From Basidiobolus meristosporus CBS 931.73 (Eukaryota > Basidiobolomycota > Basidiobolomycetes > Basidiobolales > Basidiobolaceae): a DNA stretch of 64,000 bases. The stretch spans positions 111,584 to 175,583 of the forward strand of contig MCFE01000092.1 of the NCBI GenBank assembly GCA_002104905.1, given 5' to 3'. Of the stretch, positions 2,183-64,000 are shown in pieces (position 1 is the stretch's first letter; every line of letters starts with the position of its first letter). The notes beneath the pieces are model-generated. The model searched no databases. It was not told where the DNA came from and saw nothing but the letters and a program-made list of their open reading frames with translations. Position numbers and translations under genes: made by a program.

Positions 2183-5100
2183 TTACCAGAAAGCGCACCA
2201 ACCGATGTAGCATTGGCAAAGGTTTTCCAAGGAAGTCGCCTGCTGTATCAGCTTCTCCACCTGGGTTGACACATCCAGCGTTTGGTTGGGCTTGAAGTCT
2301 CGTCCGGTCAACTTGTTGGAGATTCTATTGACCACGTTCAGGGCCTTTTGATTCAAGACTTCGGGGTTATTGCTAGGCTCCTCTTCTTGTGCATACTCCG
2401 ACTGGATCATTCTTCGGCTAGAAGGAACGGTTCGACTGAAGCCGTCCTCAACATTCTCACTGACTGAGCTGGCTGGTTGGCGAGGGTCCTGGTGAGGGCT
2501 GGGGGTTGTTAAGAGACGCCAGTTGATCAACGGATCATACACGAAGGCCTCCAACACCGCCATCAAGCTCTCCTTGTTCTCGCGTAGAACGCGCATGACG
2601 TTCTCACAGGTGGTACGGAAGTTTCCTTCGATACCGCTGACCTCCATGGCGTTGGTCAGCATGCGGGTCAGACGGAACGGAATGCGCTCAGGGAATTTCT
2701 CTCGGTGCATGGCCACCTCGAAACAATCGCCGAAATCGATGTGGATCACCTTTCCGGAGAATCTGTCCAACATCAGGTTCGATGGATGTCTATCCCCGAG
2801 ACCGAGAATGTAGCCAACCATGGACATCACTGCCAATGATCGGGTGTAGTTGGTACGGCGATCCAACCATGCCTCAGAGTTTCGGCTCTTCAGCCATAGC
2901 ACACGGTACAGGTCCTGACCAGTGGTATGCTCTAAAGCATACTCAAACACCTCCACCTTTTGCATCAAAGTCAAATTGTCGTAGTCCGGAGCCATTTGCA
3001 GCATAATTCTATGCTCGATGTTGAGCAGGATCTTTCTGCTCTCACGGTAATCGCGAATGAGGGCGTGGAACGTATCAGTGTTTGGTAACCAGCCGATCAG
3101 ACCGGAGTTGGGGGAAAGTGGGGTGACCGAGTATCTTTGAATATTCAAGTGTCTCTTGAATGTCTCCGGGTCTGTGGCAAGTAGTGTGTTGACGAGACCA
3201 AATAGCTGCATCACACGCTCATCCTGTCGCAGATCTTCATGACCCTTGAGAAGGAACATGTAGTCGTTTCCATCACTGCCCTTGATGGTGAACTTGCGGG
3301 GGCGTTGCTTGGATGTGATCACGTTGAAAGTGGGGACACACCGGGAAATCCTGATGATCTCTTCGCCACTCTTGTAGGTTCCAGGAACAGCAAGTTCCAA
3401 ATCCTGGGCGGCCAGAAGCCTGGGTGAAACGTATTGCAGCTCAAGGGTTGTGAGTTGTGGTAGCTGCTTATTGATGCGTCGGAACACTTGGTAGTAAAGA
3501 TCCCACGCTTGATGGAGATTGTTTTCATCCAGTGTCTGCTTGTAGCGTTTGCACCATTCTTGGGCTTCTTGCAAGTCTCTTCCAAAGGCTTGGTTGAAGG
3601 ATATTTCACGTAGGGTTTCGGGGCCTCGCTCGAGCATCTGATGCAGTGGCTCTAGAGTGGCGAACATCCCTTCAATACTACGGTCACCGAAGTACAGGCG
3701 GGATGCTTCTTCGAGACCCTCATGCCACATCTCATGCCATAGAATAGCCACCCGAATGAGTTCTTGACTCACCAACAACGCCTGCTCTACTAGCATAGCA
3801 CTGTGCGAGCGCATTTTGTCCATAATGGCCAAGGCAGCCCGTTTTCTCGAGGCATTGAGTGATTTCGAAGCAACAGTCAATGGATAGATCAACGCTTGGG
3901 GATGCTCCTTGCCAACGTCGGTGAGCAGGTGGTGAATCAATCGACGAACATTAGGGCTGGGGGCATGGATACGGGCGATCAGTTGAGGAATGACTTGAAG
4001 CCAAGTGTCAATGCTGACTGTACTGAAGCCTTCGCTTATCGCCACACTGACTTCTTGTTGATAGCCAAATTTGAACCACAAGGTGAGCAATCTAAGAGTA
4101 TCCTGCAAGCTGTTGCCACTCGACAGAGCGATTGAACGGAAGAATCCCTGGACGGCAGGAACAATGTGGGCGGTCATGATCTCTGAGGGAACTGATTCGC
4201 CCAATCTTTCGTAGTAAGTGATGACTTCAAAGTTCGAAAGAGCCCAGGCATGCCAAGCCTTGTACCAGTCTTTGTCGAAATGGGTGGCAAGATAATAGGA
4301 TCGAAGAATATCTGGGATCGTTTCTTCACTCCAGTCATCTTGCAAGGCCATTTGCCATTCTCCTTGTTTCAGGTAGCAACGAGCAAGCAGACGAGTGTAT
4401 TGTTCGTAGGCAGGGTCCCCGTGGACTAGTTCGGTGTTGACGTTGTGCTCATCGAAACCGAGCTCCTTGGATTTAGCCGCAGTGAACTCCCGGAGGAATG
4501 TAATGGTATCTTCCTTATGGCCTGTGGCCCACTTGTGCTTTAGATATGCATACACGATTTGTGGGGGAGCACTCGAATCATGTAGTTGTTCAAAGGTTGG
4601 TTGCTCTATCTCCAACAGGCCAGTGAGGGTTTTTTCGGAGAGACCAAGGCGCCCGCTTTTACGGCAAAGGTTGGCGAACTTGATCCACATTTCCATATCC
4701 TCCTTGGGTGATATGACAAGTGCCCGTATCTTCAGGATTCTCTGCCAGACGTCGACATTTCTTTGGCAGCCCTTCAGGCGCTTGACCCAGGTTTTGCGGA
4801 TGATTGCCTGACGATCGGGCAGATCATAAGATTTTTTGTAGGTGATGATCTCTTCGAGCTCCGCAAGCATTTGCACTCTGACAATAACGCTGTATGCTCG
4901 ACTATAACTTTCCCCAACAAGAGCAGTCAGCTCGGTATCCAACAAATCTCTGGTTGTGTTGATGAATTGATCCGCTTGTTGGAATTGGTTTCTATGTAAA
5001 GCCAAAATGGCGCGGAAGAAAGCACGGTCGGGCGACTCCGATTTCATGACAGCGATGAAATCGTCCATGATTTCCCACTGACCAAGACCCCACGCCGCAG

Positions 5101-8100
5101 CGGCAGCCAGAGGGGCAATGGCTCTGCGCATATCTTCTCCAGCATACGTCCATTTCTCCTGGGCAAGCTGAGAGAGTGCCTCCCATTCACCGAGAGCATG
5201 CAAGCATCTCATACGGCCCATGGTAATGTCGAATGAATTCGGGTCCTCCAGCTGCTTCTTTTCATAGGCTGCAAGAGCATCCTCCCATCTCTGGAGCTTC
5301 TCATACCAGGACTCCTTTAAGCCCAGGTCGTGATTCCGTTGGGCAAAGGTAAGAATACCCACGGCGGCATCAGGCTGCTGCAGCTGGTTGTTGATACTGA
5401 TCAACGCCTCGGTTGTTTCCGTCGAAGGCTCGGAGATAAACTCTAGTTCTTTGTAATGCAGAGCTTTAGCATAGGCGTGGCACTTGGCAGCAAAGGCGCC
5501 CAGAGTACGGATATCGATAGGAAGTGGCTTGTCATCGTGCTCCATAAATTCGGCCAGATTGAGCAGCATCTGAAGAATTTCTGGTGGTATGTTGGGGGAC
5601 TTTAGGGCAAACTCAAGTGATCTAACAAGCTCATCCTGGAAGTTATCGTCCAGTTCAGACCAGCAAGACACAAAGCCTGCATTGAAAAGCTCACGAGCTA
5701 GAGGGTAGTACACGGGGGCTAGGTTTGTAGCGCAGGCCCTCAGGGCCGGGGAAGGGGACTCCTTCAATAGCTCAACACTTAGTCGTCGGATCCATTCATT
5801 CCAATCATCCTTTGTGGATCGCTGGGTGGCTTCCCAGGCACGCTTGAGATGCTGCTGGTTGACGGGGAGCTTTTTCATTGCGCCAACATCCGCTGGTGAT
5901 TCTTCCAGCTTCATTTCGTTCAAGCGCTCGTCTTGGATCTTCCCTAAATCGCGTGGCAAGGGCTCATTCCTCAATAGCTTGGAGATAAGCATCTCGTATT
6001 CAGGGTGCTGGATCCTGTGCTTGATTAAAAGCTTCTTGACTGTAGGGGCAAACACAGCATAGTCCGGCCCTAGTTGATATGCGAGAATACATAGAGTGTC
6101 CATCGTGGCTGTACGTAACTCGTTCAGGTGAATGTTCAGCACTCTGGATAGAGGGTGTATCAACCTAGAGGCGAGATCACAGCAGTTCACATTCTTGCAC
6201 AAGTGGCCGGTAGTCTGGATGGCGATTTTACGTATTCCCACGGGAGTGTCGTTACGTTCAAAAAGCTTCACAATGACCGGAATGATCAGATGCATGTATT
6301 CTTCGATGCTGGACCCGAACTTAATCAAGGCATGTAGCACTTTTAGTGTAGGTTGCCGCTTGTCAGACATATCACTATCGATGATCTGAAGCATATGGGG
6401 GAGAAAAGCCGGCAAATGCACTTTGAATTCGCCCTCCAAGGCAACAGAGATGGCCTCGACCAGAGAGATGATACATATCTGGAGGTTCGAGGTGTTGTCC
6501 CAGAATTCCTGAATCAAGGAGAAAATGTCCTGAAGGTAATTTCTGATGTGCTGCTTCACAATGGATACCAAGATACCAAGCTGCTGGAAGTGGAACTCCA
6601 AGATACGAGGCGGTGAGGTTCTCATGACACTGAGAAATGTTGGAAGGATTTGGGGCAGGAAGGAGACGCACTTGAGGCCAAGGGTTTTAAAGATGTACAT
6701 AATGGCTTGTACAACCTCGGTGTGGTAAGCACTAAGTGAAGGATCGCGCAGAATCTTGAGCAAGCATTGAAAACCACGGTTGGGAAATAATCCTCGGAAG
6801 ACGGACCCATTCCCATCATCAGCAGAGACACATCTGTGTTTGCTGATCTGCTGTCCGCCTGAGTGTCGTTTGGTCCACCAACCGCCATCTTGTGTTTGTA
6901 AGGATCCAAGGCACCCAAAATACCCAGGAGCTTTACTGTTTCACGACGCAAGGATAGTGACTGCTCCGTTTTCAACATATCGATCAGAATATCGAGGAGA
7001 TTTGGATAGTTGAGATAGGGGTCAATAACGAATCCAGTGTTGCTGGCTATCTGTCCAAGAGCCCTAAGTGCAGCATCACGTTTCGTGGACGAGCTTTGAT
7101 CTTGGAGAGTCTCCATGATTAGAGGCAAGAGGTCATCCAAGTAGTCCAGCATGTCTTCGCCCCCAACCAAAGCAAGCTCTCCAATAGCATTCAGTACGCT
7201 AGAAGCAACACCCGGACTACGGTCTCTAGATTTAGAAAGCAACACCTTCAAAATCGGCTCTACATAGGGTTTGATCAGCCTTTGAGCGGCGGCGATTAGA
7301 TGGCTCAGCAGATGAGCACTCTCTTCCTTGTTACGACTAGCAAAGAAGTATTGTGAGATGCTGGCTGGCACAAGAGGATAGACTTCCAGAAACATACCTC
7401 ACACTGGAATACTCGAGCTCTGTCAACAACTGGATAAGGCTTTTTCTCAGCGATGGCATGACGTAGGCTGGGTTATGATTTGCAAGGCGTCCGATGATAG
7501 TAATGGCCACCTCACGAATAGCAAACACTTCATCATTAAGCGCAATAAAGAGCGAACGTACATTGTCCGCTTGTGCTAGGTGACGATCAAACCGTTCATC
7601 AAGCGAAGAGAGCACAGTAAGGCGAATGCTCGGATCTAAAGGCAAAAATCCATCAATAAGAACCGAGCACACATCATACATCACATCGACACATACCTGG
7701 GTCAGCAATTCCAGATGTGAGAAGCTTCTCAAGCACCTCGCTAACCACTTCAATGGCATGGTTGCTGGCCTGGAAACAGATCGGATCACGGACGAATAGT
7801 TGGCAGCAGGTCAAGGCTGCAGCCTTCCTGACCTCTACCGAGTCATCTTCCAAGTAGGATATAATGTGATCACGAACAAACTCGCTGAGCATATGCCCGT
7901 TGAAGTCGAAGCTCCCTAGAGTGTTGAGAGCTAGAGTTACGGTTTCTGGGTCGCGATTCTCGATCAACTGGACGTCACGCGGGGTGGGTACACTAGCGGC
8001 GATTAAACGAGCGGGTGCGCCAGGCTGTCGGTAAGGCTGTCCAGTCAAGATGATCGCAAGCATATTTAGGAGGCGGTCCTGGATGGTCGGTAGCAGGGGA

Positions 8101-58301: not shown

Positions 58302-58671
58302 CTAAATGTCCATACTGACTAGTCCTAATTTTGACCTAAGATATTCAAACTTGTTTCTAGCTAATGGTTTGGTAAATATGTCTGCAATCATTTCATCTGT
58401 AGGACAGTAAACTAAGCTAACTAAGTTATTCTCTATAGCTTCACATATGAAATGATGTCTAATATCTATGTGCTTGGTTCTAGCATGAAAAGTTGGATTT
58501 CTACCTAATTGTATACATCCTTGATTATCTTGAAATAAAGTAACAGGCGTTTTTTGACATAGGCCTAAATCTGTAAAGAGTTTTCTTAACCATATTGCTT
58601 CTTTTGTTGCTTCACAGGCTGCCATATACTCTGCCTCTGTAGTAGAAAGTGCTACAGTTGGTTGCTTTCTT
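58302..58671 (-). mobile_element. Ty1/copia polyprotein, RNase H 3' end (interrupted)
   Basis: Reads KQPTVALSTTEAEYMAACEA (catalytic Glu), then DNQGCIQLGRNPTFHARTKH (Asp), KHIDIRHHF, and the closing copia motif MIADIFTKPLARNKFEYLRS, with the stop at 58,302. The frame is intact over about 120 codons. At its upstream end the sequence changes abruptly into the 3' end of a LINE, just before the codons for KQPTVALS. The rest of the copia polyprotein should resume on the far side of the LINE array, outside the window. Confidence 0.9.
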
Positions 58672-58740
58672 AGGGGGTTAGGGGGGAGACAGTCACCAAC
58701 AGGTGAAATCTTTATTCCAGTTGAAACAAAGAAGCCAGCG

Positions 58741-61509
58741 CTACTGTTGTAGCTTTGATACAAGAGTATGTAGCTGAGGGGAATTTGTAGGTAAGTTAAT
58801 CAGAAGTGATGATAGTTCTTCAGTGCTCAAGACACTGTTCAGTGGGAAGGGGGGTAGCAAGAGAGGTAAGAATGACTTGTGAACAACATTAATGAGGGGA
58901 ATGTGATAAGGATTGATATTCATCATAAAGGGAGTGTGCTGCTGCAGATATTGCTGCCAAAGGTCTGTCAAGTACTTCAGGTAGGCCAGCTTGGGTTTTT
59001 CTGACTGCAGAATATAGTGAGCAAACTTCTTGACTTCAGGATCTCCAAGTATAGTTCTCCAGCAGGAGCCAGGTGTTGTGTGGTGTGTTCTCTTCCAGGC
59101 CTTAATCAGTGGGTTGTTGCAGTTGTGAAGTCTGAGGTATAATCTGGTTCTAAGGTAGAGAAGTCTGATCTTATAGGGCATAAACCCAAAAGCACCAAGA
59201 ATAGCATGTCTGTAGGGACATTCAGGCAAATGAGGCACCAAGGAGGTAATGCACCATACTGCAAACTTGTCAAGCTTAGTGCAGTCTCTAGAAGTAAGAG
59301 AGAGAAGTGGTAAGCCAAACTCCAGGACAGGGAAGACAAACTGCTTGAGTAGAAGGAGGCAGCTGGGAGCTGAAGTTGTAGGAGGAGTAACAGCCAGTAG
59401 CTTGTGGAGTGCCTGTCTTGCCAGGATAATTCTCTTCTTCAGGTGTGCTCCAGAGTCTAGTCCAGTAGGAAGGAAAGGAAAGCCAAGATATGTAGCAGAA
59501 ACCTGAGCAGGTAGAGTGGAGTTCTCCAAGTTGATGGGAGAGCCCAAAGGTACTGTCTTTGCAATGGAAAGCTGGAGATTATTCTTCTGCAGATACTGGT
59601 GGATGGTCTGGGAGTCTTGTTGCACATTGGAGGAGGATATTCTGATGTCATCAGCAAAGAGAGTAACCAGGCAGTCAGCTGAGAGTCTTGGGAAATCATT
59701 CAGGAAGATGGCAAACAGTATAGGACCAAGCACAGAGCCTTGAACCACTCCATTAGGAACTGAGAACACAGCTGATTGCTCACTTGGGTGCAGAATTCTT
59801 GCTTGTGTATCCAGAAACAGAGACCTGACAAGGAGGGTGAGAGAGGTACTGGAGAAGCATTGCAACTTGGACCAAAGCAGATTTCTGTCAACTGAATCAA
59901 AGGCCTTAGTAATATCAAACAGAACAGAGGGATACTTGCTCTGGAGAGAGTGATCTTGGCTAAGTATGACTGCATATTCCAAGGAGAGGCCAGGAACAAA
60001 GCCAAACTGTGCAGGATGAAACTTGAGGGAGTCAGAGTAGAGCTCCTGAGCTAGCAGAAGCTCAAACACCTTTCTGCAGGTGGGCAGCAGAGATATTGGC
60101 CTGTAGGAGCTAGGATCCAGGTGCTTTCCTTTACCCTTGTACAGTGGCAGAACATTTGCAAAGGACCATTCCTCAGGAGTAGAAAGCTGGGCTGAGCATT
60201 GCTGAAACAGTGGAAGCAGAAGTGCAGACATGGCAATGGTACTAGTCTTCAGAAGCTCATAAGAGATTGTGTCCACACCTGGAGCAGTAGAGTTGGGAAG
60301 CCTCTTGAGCACATCATGGATTCTCCTTTGATCAAGTGCAAGTGGGATGGGCAGAGTCTTGAAGTCAGGATGAAAGCCAGGAGTTGAGTACTGCTTTGTA
60401 GAGAAGAAGATGTTAGCCAGCTGTTCTGTTGAAGGTAACTTCCTGGAAGAGAGCCTCATTGCCCTGTAGAGTCTTGATACTATTCTTGTTAAAGAGTTGG
60501 AAGATTGCAGAGGCAAGGAACTCATAATATGATCCCAGAGCTGAGTATGCAGAGTGTGGTGAATTGCCTTGGAGTGGTGTATGGCTGTCAGGAGGAGTTT
60601 CTCTGTTTTTGGGTTAGGGAAACTCAGGTAGCTTTGTTGCAGGGCTGAAACAATGGATTCCCATTTTCTTGAGGTAACAGCAGTAGTCTTGCATGGCAGT
60701 GAGAGGGAGGCAGACACCAGAATCAGATGCTTCACAAAGAGCCAGGCATAGTTGAGATCATCTGGCAGAGAAAGTAGCAAACTGGCAAGCTTCAAGTAGT
60801 TCCCAAAGTCTTTCTTCTGATTCTTGGTAGCTTTGTGGGTGAGCACAGTAAGTTTTGGCAGCTTCTCCTTCACAACTGGTTGCATAGAAAGGGACCAGGC
60901 TGGGTGGTCAGAGGCTCTCAAGGATCCTAGCTCAGCTCCAGAGAATTGCTTAACTTCATCCACAAAGTAGAGGGCAGCAGCAGAAGGGCAGATCCAGTCA
61001 ACACATCTTTTCTCAGATTGAGCACCTAGTGCTAGCAGATGGCTTTCTCTCAGGAAGTTCAGTAGGAATGTTGACCTTGGCTTCATTCTTGCATTCAGAG
61101 TAGTCTTGTTCTCAGGATGGGGAATGTTGAGATCTCCAAGCAAGATAGCAGGTGTTGATATAGATTGCAGGTATTGCTGAACTTTCTGGCATATAACTTG
61201 CACTTCCTGAAGGGCAAGACTTGGAGGCAGATAGCAGAGCACCAGACTGATAGTTGGCAACTGGAGAGCAGCACAGTAAGGGGAGTAAAGAGGAACACAG
61301 AGCTGAGGAGTATTGATGGTAGAAGAGATGAAGCAGATAGAGGAGGTATTCTTTGTTCTAGGAGTAGAAAAGCAATATAGATTAGTCAAAAGTATAGAGG
61401 GTAGCTGGACATCAATCAAACACAGGAGGGTAAATCTTGAAAGAAGTCTCTCTAGAGTTGGTCTTGATGGCTGTATGCTGTTGCAGTTAAGCAACAGAAC
61501 TTCAGGTAG
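58741..61509 (-). CDS. LINE ORF2: endonuclease and reverse transcriptase
   Basis: Open frame of 922 codons starting directly after the ORF1 stop codon. The first in-frame ATG (61,086) is 141 codons in, already past the endonuclease GDLN motif. APE-type endonuclease elements: LLLNCNSI, VLCYLPPS, ILLGDLNIP, CVDWI and SDHPAW; a clear catalytic Glu (usual QE motif) is not visible in CLIDVQLPS. Reverse transcriptase: SYRPISLLPTCRKVFE, FGFVPGLSLEYA, LFDITKAFDSVDR (Asp), NGVVQGSVLGPILFAIFLND and LFADDIRIS (catalytic FADD). No CCHC knuckle or RNase H was seen at the C-terminus. Stop TAG at 58,741-58,743. Provides target-primed reverse transcription. Confidence 0.88.
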   Translation of the reverse strand, partial: LPEVLLLNCNSIQPSRPTLERLLSRFTLLCLIDVQLPSILLTNLYCFSTPRTKNTSSICFISSTINTPQLCVPLYSPYCAALQLPTISLVLCYLPPSLALQEVQVICQKVQQYLQSISTPAILLGDLNIPHPENKTTLNARMKPRSTFLLNFLRESHLLALGAQSEKRCVDWICPSAAALYFVDEVKQFSGAELGSLRASDHPAWSLSMQPVVKEKLPKLTVLTHKATKNQKKDFGNYLKLASLLLSLPDDLNYAWLFVKHLILVSASLSLPCKTTAVTSRKWESIVSALQQSYLSFPNPKTEKLLLTAIHHSKAIHHTLHTQLWDHIMSSLPLQSSNSLTRIVSRLYRAMRLSSRKLPSTEQLANIFFSTKQYSTPGFHPDFKTLPIPLALDQRRIHDVLKRLPNSTAPGVDTISYELLKTSTIAMSALLLPLFQQCSAQLSTPEEWSFANVLPLYKGKGKHLDPSSYRPISLLPTCRKVFELLLAQELYSDSLKFHPAQFGFVPGLSLEYAVILSQDHSLQSKYPSVLFDITKAFDSVDRNLLWSKLQCFSSTSLTLLVRSLFLDTQARILHPSEQSAVFSVPNGVVQGSVLGPILFAIFLNDFPRLSADCLVTLFADDIRISSSNVQQDSQTIHQYLQKNNLQLSIAKTVPLGSPINLENSTLPAQVSATYLGFPFLPTGLDSGAHLKKRIILARQALHKLLAVTPPTTSAPSCLLLLKQFVFPVLEFGLPLLSLTSRDCTKLDKFAVWCITSLVPHLPECPYRHAILGAFGFMPYKIRLLYLRTRLYLRLHNCNNPLIKAWKRTHHTTPGSCWRTILGDPEVKKFAHYILQSEKPKLAYLKYLTDLWQQYLQQHTPFMMNINPYHIPLINVVHKSFLPLLLPPFPLNSVLSTEELSSLLINLPTNSPQLHTLVSKLQQ

Positions 61510-63018
61510 TCAGGCAGAGGTTGTAGCTTCTTCAGAGGCAGCATTGACAATGTGACCTGCAGAGTCCCAGAGCTCTTCAAATGGTGCATCACTTAAGTCA
61601 GCAAGGAGGGAAATGGCATGGTTCTTGAGGAAGTATGCCACATCATAGGAGGGGGCTTGTCTCTTGATGGCAGCAAAGAAAGACAGAATGGCAACATGGG
61701 CTGGAGGCTTGTTGAACAGTAGAGAGTCAGAGGATTCAGATTCTTCAGGCACTATCTTGAAGTCAGTTTTCAGCCAGTTAAGGTTCTTCTCCACAAAGGC
61801 AACAAATGGGTCAGCAATGTTTTGGTCTAGGATAACCTCCAGAATCTTCCCTTTTCTCCAGGCCAGGTTGACAATTCTTGAGAGCTGAATATTGCATGCC
61901 TTGAGTGCTCTCCTGATGTTGGAAATGGGAGTCCAGGGAACTTGCTTCAAGTACACCACAGTCCAGGTAGAAGCTGGTGGTAGGTTTGCTGGGGGCTTGT
62001 AAGTCCTTCTGTGTGGCAATGGAGCTGCAGTAGTCAGATTGGAGTCCACATTCTCAGTAGAGGGTTTTCTTGATGTGTCTTGCTGAATGGTACTGGAGCT
62101 GGATGTGCTGATAATTCTTGCTAGAACCTTGCCTGCATAAGTCTGAGGCATAGCTGAGGTGACTGTAGAGGTGGTGGCAGCTGGTGCAGGTGGAGAGGCA
62201 GAAACTGAAGCAGGAACTGAGGTCACCTGGGAGAAGGCAGTAGAAGCAGGTTTTCTGGGAGGAACAGAGTTCACTATCCAGTTGTTCTGTAAAACACTGG
62301 AGTAGCTTTTCTGTTGAACAGGATCTTGCTCTTGAACAGGAACAGAAGCAGGAGGCTGGGGCTGAGCAGTAGTGGTAAGGCAGTGGCACTCCAAGGAAGC
62401 TTTTTGCAAGGCATCTCTGGCAGTTTTCAGGGCAGTATTGGCTTCATTCTTGAGCTTCTTGCATTGGGCATCCAGTCTCTTGTTTTCAATAGCCAGGGCA
62501 GTATTGGCAGCCTCTAAATCAGCAATTCTCTTCTCAATTGCAAGGAATCTCTGAAGAAATGCATCAGTAGAAGTGCTGGCATCTGGGAGAGCAGTGGCAG
62601 GAATAGAGTCCATTGACAGTGGGCTTCTTGGAGGCAAGGAAAGTGGACTGGCAGATTCAGGCACAAAAGGAGATATCCTGGCAGGAGGAGAAGGAGTATC
62701 CAAGGCAGTAACAGAGGCAATTCTTGTTGGTGAAGCAGCAGCAGGGGAGGCAAGCCTGTTCAGAAACTGGGCAGGAGAGAGTGCTTGAGGAGAGGGAGTC
62801 TTCAGCTTGCCAAGCATGTCTTCCATCAGAGTGATACCAATATTCCTGGTGCATTTGCAGAGAAAAGTAAGCTTCCTGAGTCTGCCAGCTCTTCCATTCC
62901 TTCTGATAGTTCCTTTGTTTCCACAGTTGGGGCAAGAAATCTTCTTGACAGACTTGTCAAAGCAATCAAGAACCTTCCTTTCAGGTGTAGTGGGCTCCTG
63001 TTGAGGTTTTGGTGGCAT
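61510..63018 (-). CDS. LINE ORF1 protein
   Basis: 502 aa from ATG 63,018 to TGA 61,510. The N-terminal zinc-ribbon-like motif is ISCPNCGNKGTIRRNG followed by LTFLCKC (Cys pairs about 24 residues apart). Next come a Ser/Pro/Ala-rich linker and a coiled coil (about residues 155-205, with RIADLEAANTALAIENKRLD). A long low-complexity region leads to an RRM-like segment (WTVVYLKQVPWTPISNIRRA ... ILEVILD) near residues 360-435. ORF1 proteins bind element RNA. The zinc ribbon at the N-terminus is more like those of transposases and polymerases than the usual CCHC knuckles. The stop is followed by CTA and an open ORF2 in the same frame. Confidence 0.85.
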   Translation of the reverse strand: MPPKPQQEPTTPERKVLDCFDKSVKKISCPNCGNKGTIRRNGRAGRLRKLTFLCKCTRNIGITLMEDMLGKLKTPSPQALSPAQFLNRLASPAAASPTRIASVTALDTPSPPARISPFVPESASPLSLPPRSPLSMDSIPATALPDASTSTDAFLQRFLAIEKRIADLEAANTALAIENKRLDAQCKKLKNEANTALKTARDALQKASLECHCLTTTAQPQPPASVPVQEQDPVQQKSYSSVLQNNWIVNSVPPRKPASTAFSQVTSVPASVSASPPAPAATTSTVTSAMPQTYAGKVLARIISTSSSSTIQQDTSRKPSTENVDSNLTTAAPLPHRRTYKPPANLPPASTWTVVYLKQVPWTPISNIRRALKACNIQLSRIVNLAWRKGKILEVILDQNIADPFVAFVEKNLNWLKTDFKIVPEESESSDSLLFNKPPAHVAILSFFAAIKRQAPSYDVAYFLKNHAISLLADLSDAPFEELWDSAGHIVNAASEEATTSA

Positions 63019-63245
63019 ATCCAGAGTTTCAGCTTCAAATTTCAATTTTTGAGATTTTTGGGTGATTTTTGATGGGCGGGATCAAAATTAGGGTTAGGGT
63101 TGCGCGCTGTGACTGCTTTTTACGATCGCAAGGTCAGAACCTAGGAAAAAATAAAAATAGTTAGTAAAGGTGATTTAATGGATGGATGGATGGATTCGGA
63201 GTCAGATTCAATCAAAAAATCAAATGTTGACTAATTTAAAGAGGA
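63019..63245. other. junction between LINE copies (5' UTR of copy 1 and spacer)
   Basis: Contains TTAGGGTTAGGGTT at 63,088-63,101, a TGGA tetranucleotide repeat at about 63,179-63,195, and at least six CpG sites (63,077 to 63,197) in contrast to the CpG-free LINE body. It may be the LINE promoter/5' UTR, or partly a leftover target. Confidence 0.5.
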
Positions 63246-64000
63246 GGGTTAGGGGGGAGACAGTCACCAACAGGTGAAATCTTTATTTCAGTTGAAACAA
63301 AGAAGCCAGCGCTACTGTTGTAGCTTTGATACAAGAGTGTGTAGCTGAGGGGAATTTGTAGGTAAGTTAATAAGAAGTGATGATAGTTCTTCAGTGCTCA
63401 AGACACTGTTCAGTGGGAAGGGGGGTAGCAAGAGAGGTAAGAATGACTTGTGAACAACATTAATGAGGGGAATGTGATAAGGATTGATATTCATCATAAA
63501 GGGAGTGTGCTGCTGCAGATATTGCTGCCAAAGGTCTGTCAAGTACTTCAGGTAGGCCAGCTTGGGTTTTTCTGACTGCAGAATATATTCAGCAAACTTC
63601 TTGACTTCAGGATCTCCAAGTATAGTTCTCCAGCAGGAGCCAGGTGTTGTGTGGTGTGTTCTCTTCCAGGCCTTAATCAGTGGGTTGTTGCAGTTGTGAA
63701 GTCTGAGGTATAATCTGGTTCTAAGGTAGAGAAGTCTGATCTTATAGGGCATAAACCCAAAAGCACCAAGAATAGCATGTCTGTAGGGGCATTCAGGCAA
63801 ATGAGGCACCAAGGAGGTAATGCACCATACTGCAAACTTGTCAAGCTTAGTGCAGTCTCTAGAAGTAAGAGAGAGAAGTGGTAAGCCAAATTCCAGGACA
63901 GGGAAGACAAACTGCTTGAGTAGAAGGAGGCAGCTGGGAGCTGAAGTTGTAGGAGGAGTAACAGCCAGTAGCTTGTGGAGTGCCTGTCTTGCCAGGATAA
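63246..64000 (-). mobile_element. LINE copy 2, 3' end (runs off window)
   Basis: Same element and same strand as copy 1, matching 58,675-59,430 with about seven substitutions and no indels. It includes the 3' UTR and the C-terminal codons of ORF2 (stop at 63,312), open to the window edge. It lies head-to-tail behind copy 1, separated by about 140-230 bp. Confidence 0.93.

Follow-up and report, generated by a model that had tools for sequence, protein, structure and literature searches.

Two-ORF LINEs have long posed the question of how their second open reading frame is expressed, and the answer usually given is re-initiation, overlap or frameshift. A LINE found in the 64,000-nucleotide stretch of Basidiobolus meristosporus DNA analysed here (hereafter the window) raises this question again, as its ORF1 and ORF2 occupy one frame and are separated by a single TGA. 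We refer to this element and its close copies as family A. The parts of the element and its neighbour in the window are the following:

63246..64000, minus strand: 3' part (ORF2 end and tail) of a second family A copy, more distal in a head-to-tail array and cut by the contig end
63019..63245, minus strand: 5' leader of the element, adjoining the 3' tail of the more distal copy
61513..63018, minus strand: ORF1, 502 codons from the ATG at 63018 to the codon before the stop
61510..61512, minus strand: ORF1 stop codon TGA, the proposed readthrough site
61507..61509, minus strand: CTA codon directly behind the TGA (UGA CUA context)
58744..61509, minus strand: ORF2, APE-type endonuclease and reverse transcriptase, 922 codons in the frame of ORF1
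60877..61509, minus strand: APE-type endonuclease domain, ORF2 residues 1-211 (modelled fold)
61084..61086, minus strand: earliest ATG in the ORF2 frame, at codon 142 behind the stop
59476..60114, minus strand: reverse transcriptase core RVT_1 (Pfam PF00078, E 8.4e-26), ORF2 residues 466-678
58741-58743, minus strand: ORF2 stop codon TAG
58675..58720, minus strand: 3' tail of the element, with AATAAA, a small hairpin, a C-run and a telomere-like CCCTAACCC end

The protein encoded by ORF1 has a cysteine-rich N-terminus, a coiled-coil-like middle and a conserved C-terminal part. As stated in the preliminary description of this DNA, ORF1 ends in a TGA (61512-61510) that is followed by CTA, after which the same frame stays open for the 922 codons of ORF2; if read through, the product would have 1,425 amino acids (502+1+922). 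The further statement that no ATG occurs in ORF2 before codon 141 also holds, the first in-frame ATG being codon 142 (61086-61084). A search of the whole window against Rfam gave no match at gathering thresholds. Directly inward of the 3' end of the LINE, a Copia-type RNase H remnant was recognised by eye (window 58302-58680, minus strand).

ORF2 contains both an APE-type endonuclease and a reverse transcriptase and thus belongs to an APE-type LINE; the reverse transcriptase resembles L1 ORF2p by sequence, a resemblance that does not amount to a clade assignment. The modelled APE-type fold aligns from ORF2 residue 1, with residues 3-8 as its first strand, and the endonuclease motif Asn is residue 8, so that seven codons lie between the stop and the Asn of the NCNS motif. 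Because the fold begins this early, an ORF2 protein started at the ATG of codon 142 would lose the endonuclease, as had been proposed. The ETxL glutamate motif usual in APE-type endonucleases has Asp for Glu here (LIDVQL, LIDVKL or LIDVKI); this altered motif, at ORF2 residues 31-36 of family A, is also present in the second family and in the proteins P0001 and P0002 described below.

We scored 49 ORF2 copies of family A out of 1379 candidates. The frame between stops was exactly 922 codons long in 48 of them and 932 codons in the remaining one, and three of the 49 contained an internal stop. Among copies with an exact 15-base anchor, no indels and less than 6% difference, drawn from the 32 junctions found, pairwise pN/pS was 0.26 for ORF1 (nine indel-free copies) and 0.41 for ORF2 (15 indel-free copies, two of them with internal stops), and both ORFs are under purifying selection. 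At the junction, a search pattern in which the stop codon was left open and one that contained TGA each matched 132 places, and therefore all 132 exact-flank junctions carry TGA; this count is uninformative on CTA, which was fixed in the pattern. When the fetched copies that run across the junction were aligned, which avoids the pattern bias, all 32 had TGA CTA (matches that did not span it were excluded and left uncounted). However, conservation within family A is weak evidence, because just eight of the 183 columns of this alignment vary. Most of the 132 junctions (127) are on the minus strand, and the 100 family A places listed are spread over 92 contigs, the fetched ones lying mostly near right contig ends.

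A diverged sister family (family B, locus L012) in the same genome allowed a more distant comparison. Families A and B are 40.6% identical in ORF1 (387 aligned residues) and 42.7% identical in the endonuclease part of ORF2 (384 aligned residues). The family B junction reads TCTGCC TGA CTA CAG AAC ATA CTC TTA CTC AAT TGC AAC and matches that of family A in the stretch TCTGCC-TGA-CTA-C with its stop and next codon, in the frame and in the seven-codon spacing to the motif Asn. Since the TGA-CTA arrangement recurs at about 41-43% amino acid identity, we consider it to be more than chance. The open frame of family B comprises 949 codons between stops (16 rows), and its first in-frame ATG is codon 59, counted from the translation. 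Among 21 fetched junctions, 20 have TGA, 20 have CTA and 19 have both; the two deviant ones read TGA GTA (L052, on C102) and CAA CTA (L053, on C830), and in the latter, where the stop is lost, NFNS replaces NCNS. With exact flanks, TGA was found at 22 of 23 junctions and CAA at the other, a set smaller than the whole family because the pattern misses the CTACAA copies (six of the 21 fetched).

The two families use the same codon in nine of 53 aligned Leu-Leu pairs, and CTA is paired with CTA just once, directly behind the stop. The run of identical bases at the junction (13) is tied for third-longest among the runs compared and by its length is unremarkable. The longest such run, of 20 nt, lies in ORF2 (window 60604-60623, minus strand, GTTTCCCTAACCCAAAAACA); it covers the codons for FPNPKT and contains the telomere-like CCCTAACCC. 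In this comparison of two families, the stop and its context are kept across diverged relatives while the flanks change, and it is chiefly through family B that the expectation set out for other copies, namely TGA CTA, frame and spacing kept with varying flanks, was borne out. Neither the 27 scanned loci nor the 104 scored rows showed an ORF1-ORF2 junction of any further family. A 92-residue ORF2 fragment 29% identical to family A (L017, 502-777, minus strand), for which no junction was found, perhaps represents a more distant ORF2 lineage.

The use of TGA can be set against the stops of neighbouring and host genes. The same arrays contain two kinds of ORF1-only relatives, which have no ORF2; their frame stays open for no more than 19 codons past the stop, and a 3' tail lies nearby. 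All seven intact ORF1 ends among the eight rows examined carry TAG, the row left out (L031) having a premature TAA. Such relatives occur at L009, L011, L020, L024, L026 and L028 and are likely non-autonomous partners. Twenty host genes of the PGK, GAPDH and MDH/LDH-like types, fetched from 30 places found, end in TAA (14) or TAG (six) and never in TGA. Thirteen host ORFs inspected in the window end in TAA (seven), TAG (five) or TGA (one), although these are ORF ends, some possibly intronic, the TGA one probably so. TGA is thus a rare stop in the host sample, and both ORF2-bearing families nonetheless use it for ORF1. The 20 host genes examined thus included none with TGA-CTA readthrough. The window also encodes a 2OG-Fe(II) oxygenase domain (PF13661, 48550-49140, plus strand), in an ORF that we take to be Tpa1/OGFOD1-like, an enzyme type linked to termination fidelity.

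Among the matches listed, the closest relatives were the proteins P0001 to P0005. The nearest full-length one, P0001, is 59-62% identical, and its predicted start (MDLLLLNCNS) lies one codon behind the expected CTA position. Prokaryote-style gene predictors accept GTG and TTG besides ATG. The predicted start may be P0001's own start codon, which is our chief reservation; if it is an ATG, P0001 may re-initiate, and readthrough may then be derived in families A and B, or shared, with a start added in P0001. The predicted starts of P0002, P0003, P0004 and P0005 lie behind the first motif, at about residues 29 to 259 of ORF2, which fits ORF2s that lack an early start, although contig ends or the choice of the predictor might equally account for it. 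Searching viral contigs with P0001 and P0003 yielded no relative.

Taken at the sequence level, these observations make it probable that programmed UGA-CUA readthrough provides a low-level ORF1-ORF2 fusion in this telomere-associated APE-endonuclease LINE. The majority of ribosomes would terminate at the UGA and release ORF1 protein, and a small fraction would get past the leaky UGA-CUA by inserting an amino acid and continue in frame to give the fusion of about 1,425 amino acids. The ratio between the two outcomes would keep ORF1p in excess over the enzyme, an effect that gag-pol readthrough has in some retroviruses. For this LINE, the occurrence of readthrough, its level and the activity of an uncleaved fusion are inferred. 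UGA CUA had been put forward as a leaky-stop context, and in the fungus Ustilago maydis it suffices for readthrough, according to the available portion of the report (PMC4207609). The accessible part of work on mammalian genes describes the strongest motif as having a G after the CUA (PMC12233894). In families A and B this base is a C, and the level of readthrough may therefore be modest.

Folding of the RNA 3' of the stop, proposed beforehand as a check, gave a divided result. Family A has a hairpin 13-32 nt behind the stop (z -2.28 in a 48 nt fold, -0.83 in 116 nt), but family B has no counterpart within 48 nt (z -0.09), so no structure is shared. Longer folds (116-119 nt, z -0.83 and -1.18) were not significant, and we rejected a stimulatory hairpin as the common signal. 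This leaves UGA CUA itself as the signal common to both families.

Other routes to an ORF2 protein have to be weighed against this. Ribosomes might re-initiate after the ORF1 stop at a near-cognate codon, much as in SART1 but without an AUG, and so produce ORF2 protein on its own, its endonuclease intact. In the sections available of a review (PMC5972666), SART1 is described as re-initiating, the same is proposed for L1, and caliciviruses are said to tolerate non-AUG codons in re-initiation. CTG and TTG are present at codons 5-6 of family A, and the predicted start of P0001 is at the codon after the expected CTA. However, families A (CTA CCT GAA GTT CTG TTG CTT) and B (CTA CAG/CAA AAC ATA CTC TTA CTC) have no common near-cognate start before the motif Asn, and an overlap of stop and start of the SART1 type finds no in-frame ATG before codon 142 (A) or 59 (B). 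Nor would re-initiation account for the joint conservation of the zero frame, TGA and CTA, and we regard it as unlikely. Much less probable still is an alternatively spliced intron that removes the stop in some transcripts and so fuses the frames. Both families have CTGAC within CCTGACTAC at the stop, which we take to resemble the branch site consensus, YAG trinucleotides follow downstream, and in most family B copies TACAG stands behind CTGAC. Against this, the 400 nt upstream of the stop contain no GTRNGT donor in either family, and the six of 21 family B junctions that read CTACAA are without that AG. Elements copied from spliced RNA would moreover be missing the stop, whereas 34/34 motif matches (27 loci, a limited sample) have one at the junction.

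Of two further readings, we give either very little credence. ORF2 could come from a separate subgenomic or internally started transcript, with translation from a downstream ATG and the in-frame stop being incidental. A precedent of a kind is Tca2, an LTR element of gag-stop-pol layout, for which the portion available of a review (PMC7175516) gives no readthrough and weak promoter activity in a reporter; anatomy alone is therefore not proof. For the present LINE, however, a start at the first ATG (codon 142 in A, 59 in B) would remove the first strand and the motif Asn of the fold, and ORF2 as a whole is constrained. Otherwise the family could be non-functional and its TGA a dead stop passed on by descent, or the host could use UGA as a normal sense codon, with which the avoidance of TGA stops in the sampled host genes would agree. 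Opposed to a dead stop are the pN/pS values of 0.26 (ORF1) and 0.41 (ORF2) and the keeping of TGA in two diverged families. An ordinary sense role for TGA is contradicted by long conserved host ORFs that stay open when TGA is treated as a stop, such as TOR (1585 codons; Pfam) and those recognisable as HSP60 or ATP synthase beta. Readthrough of the ORF1 stop, as originally suggested, is supported by the family B junction, by the endonuclease that an ATG start would cost, and by the lack of a shared alternative start or a GTRNGT donor.

In the loci that we read (L009-L035; window 58675-64000), the elements are arranged head to tail with their 3' ends toward the chromosome interior. Contig ends are reached by 22 of the fetched loci, and in eight of these the contig end is a TTAGGG array. 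A small hairpin and a C-run close the element tails, frequently together with CCCTAACCC-like bases; a pattern common across families is AATAAAGATTTCACC-loop-GGTGACTNTC-C-run-TAACCC. Units of about 530 bp that end in the LINE 3' tail were seen at L014 (about 4,900-7,100) and L020 (about 500-1,600; element sense, index within the locus). They carry GGTTGTGGGTTCAAATCC, presumably a B-box, and are probably a tRNA-derived SINE that uses the LINE tail. MoTeR and FoTeR are restriction-like-endonuclease elements and are not known to carry an APE domain. They too are fungal telomere-associated non-LTR elements, found in ascomycetes (PMC12857005, PMC7367193, in the parts available), from which the present LINE differs by its APE-type endonuclease. 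Tail and array layout would recall target priming from telomere repeats, which the accessible text of PMC4700185 discusses for SART/TRAS.

Among known systems, U. maydis tpi1 and mammalian MDH1, LDHB and AQP4 share the hexanucleotide, the in-frame extension and the short context, going by the available passages of PMC4207609 and PMC12233894; their extensions are tails of cellular proteins, whereas here the extension is a 922-amino-acid endonuclease-RT and no G follows the CUA. In murine leukaemia virus, a reverse transcriptase is likewise fused to a gag-type protein by in-frame readthrough (PMC5009743, seen in part), but this LTR element uses UAG with a 3' pseudoknot, in contrast to a non-LTR element with UGA CUA and no structure common to families A and B. 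SART1 and TRAS1 are silkworm telomere-specific LINEs, and SART1 combines stop-start overlap with re-initiation (PMC5972666, same sections), unlike the in-frame TGA and the absence of an early AUG here. Zorro3 of Candida albicans is also a fungal two-ORF LINE; in the portions available of PMC1965478 and PMC7175516, multiple stops and an inter-ORF region separate its ORFs, and the first ATG of ORF2 is important for mobility. We found no LINE with in-frame readthrough in the accessible sections of the open-licence PMC literature, and those of PMC8226300 and PMC4640811 contain nothing on this question.

If confirmed, use of the compact and transplantable UGA-CUA signal would bring to LINEs readthrough as a mode of ORF2 expression, one for which retroviruses, plant viruses and certain cellular genes provide documented cases. 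It would also predict an ORF1p-ORF2p fusion and tie retrotransposition at chromosome ends to the control of translation termination. We lean, with some reserve, towards the broader view that this telomere-dwelling LINE lineage makes its reverse transcriptase solely as an ORF1-ORF2 fusion via UGA-CUA, in a host whose sampled genes avoid UGA, so that the output of the transposon, and possibly the growth of chromosome ends, would be set by the fidelity of termination.
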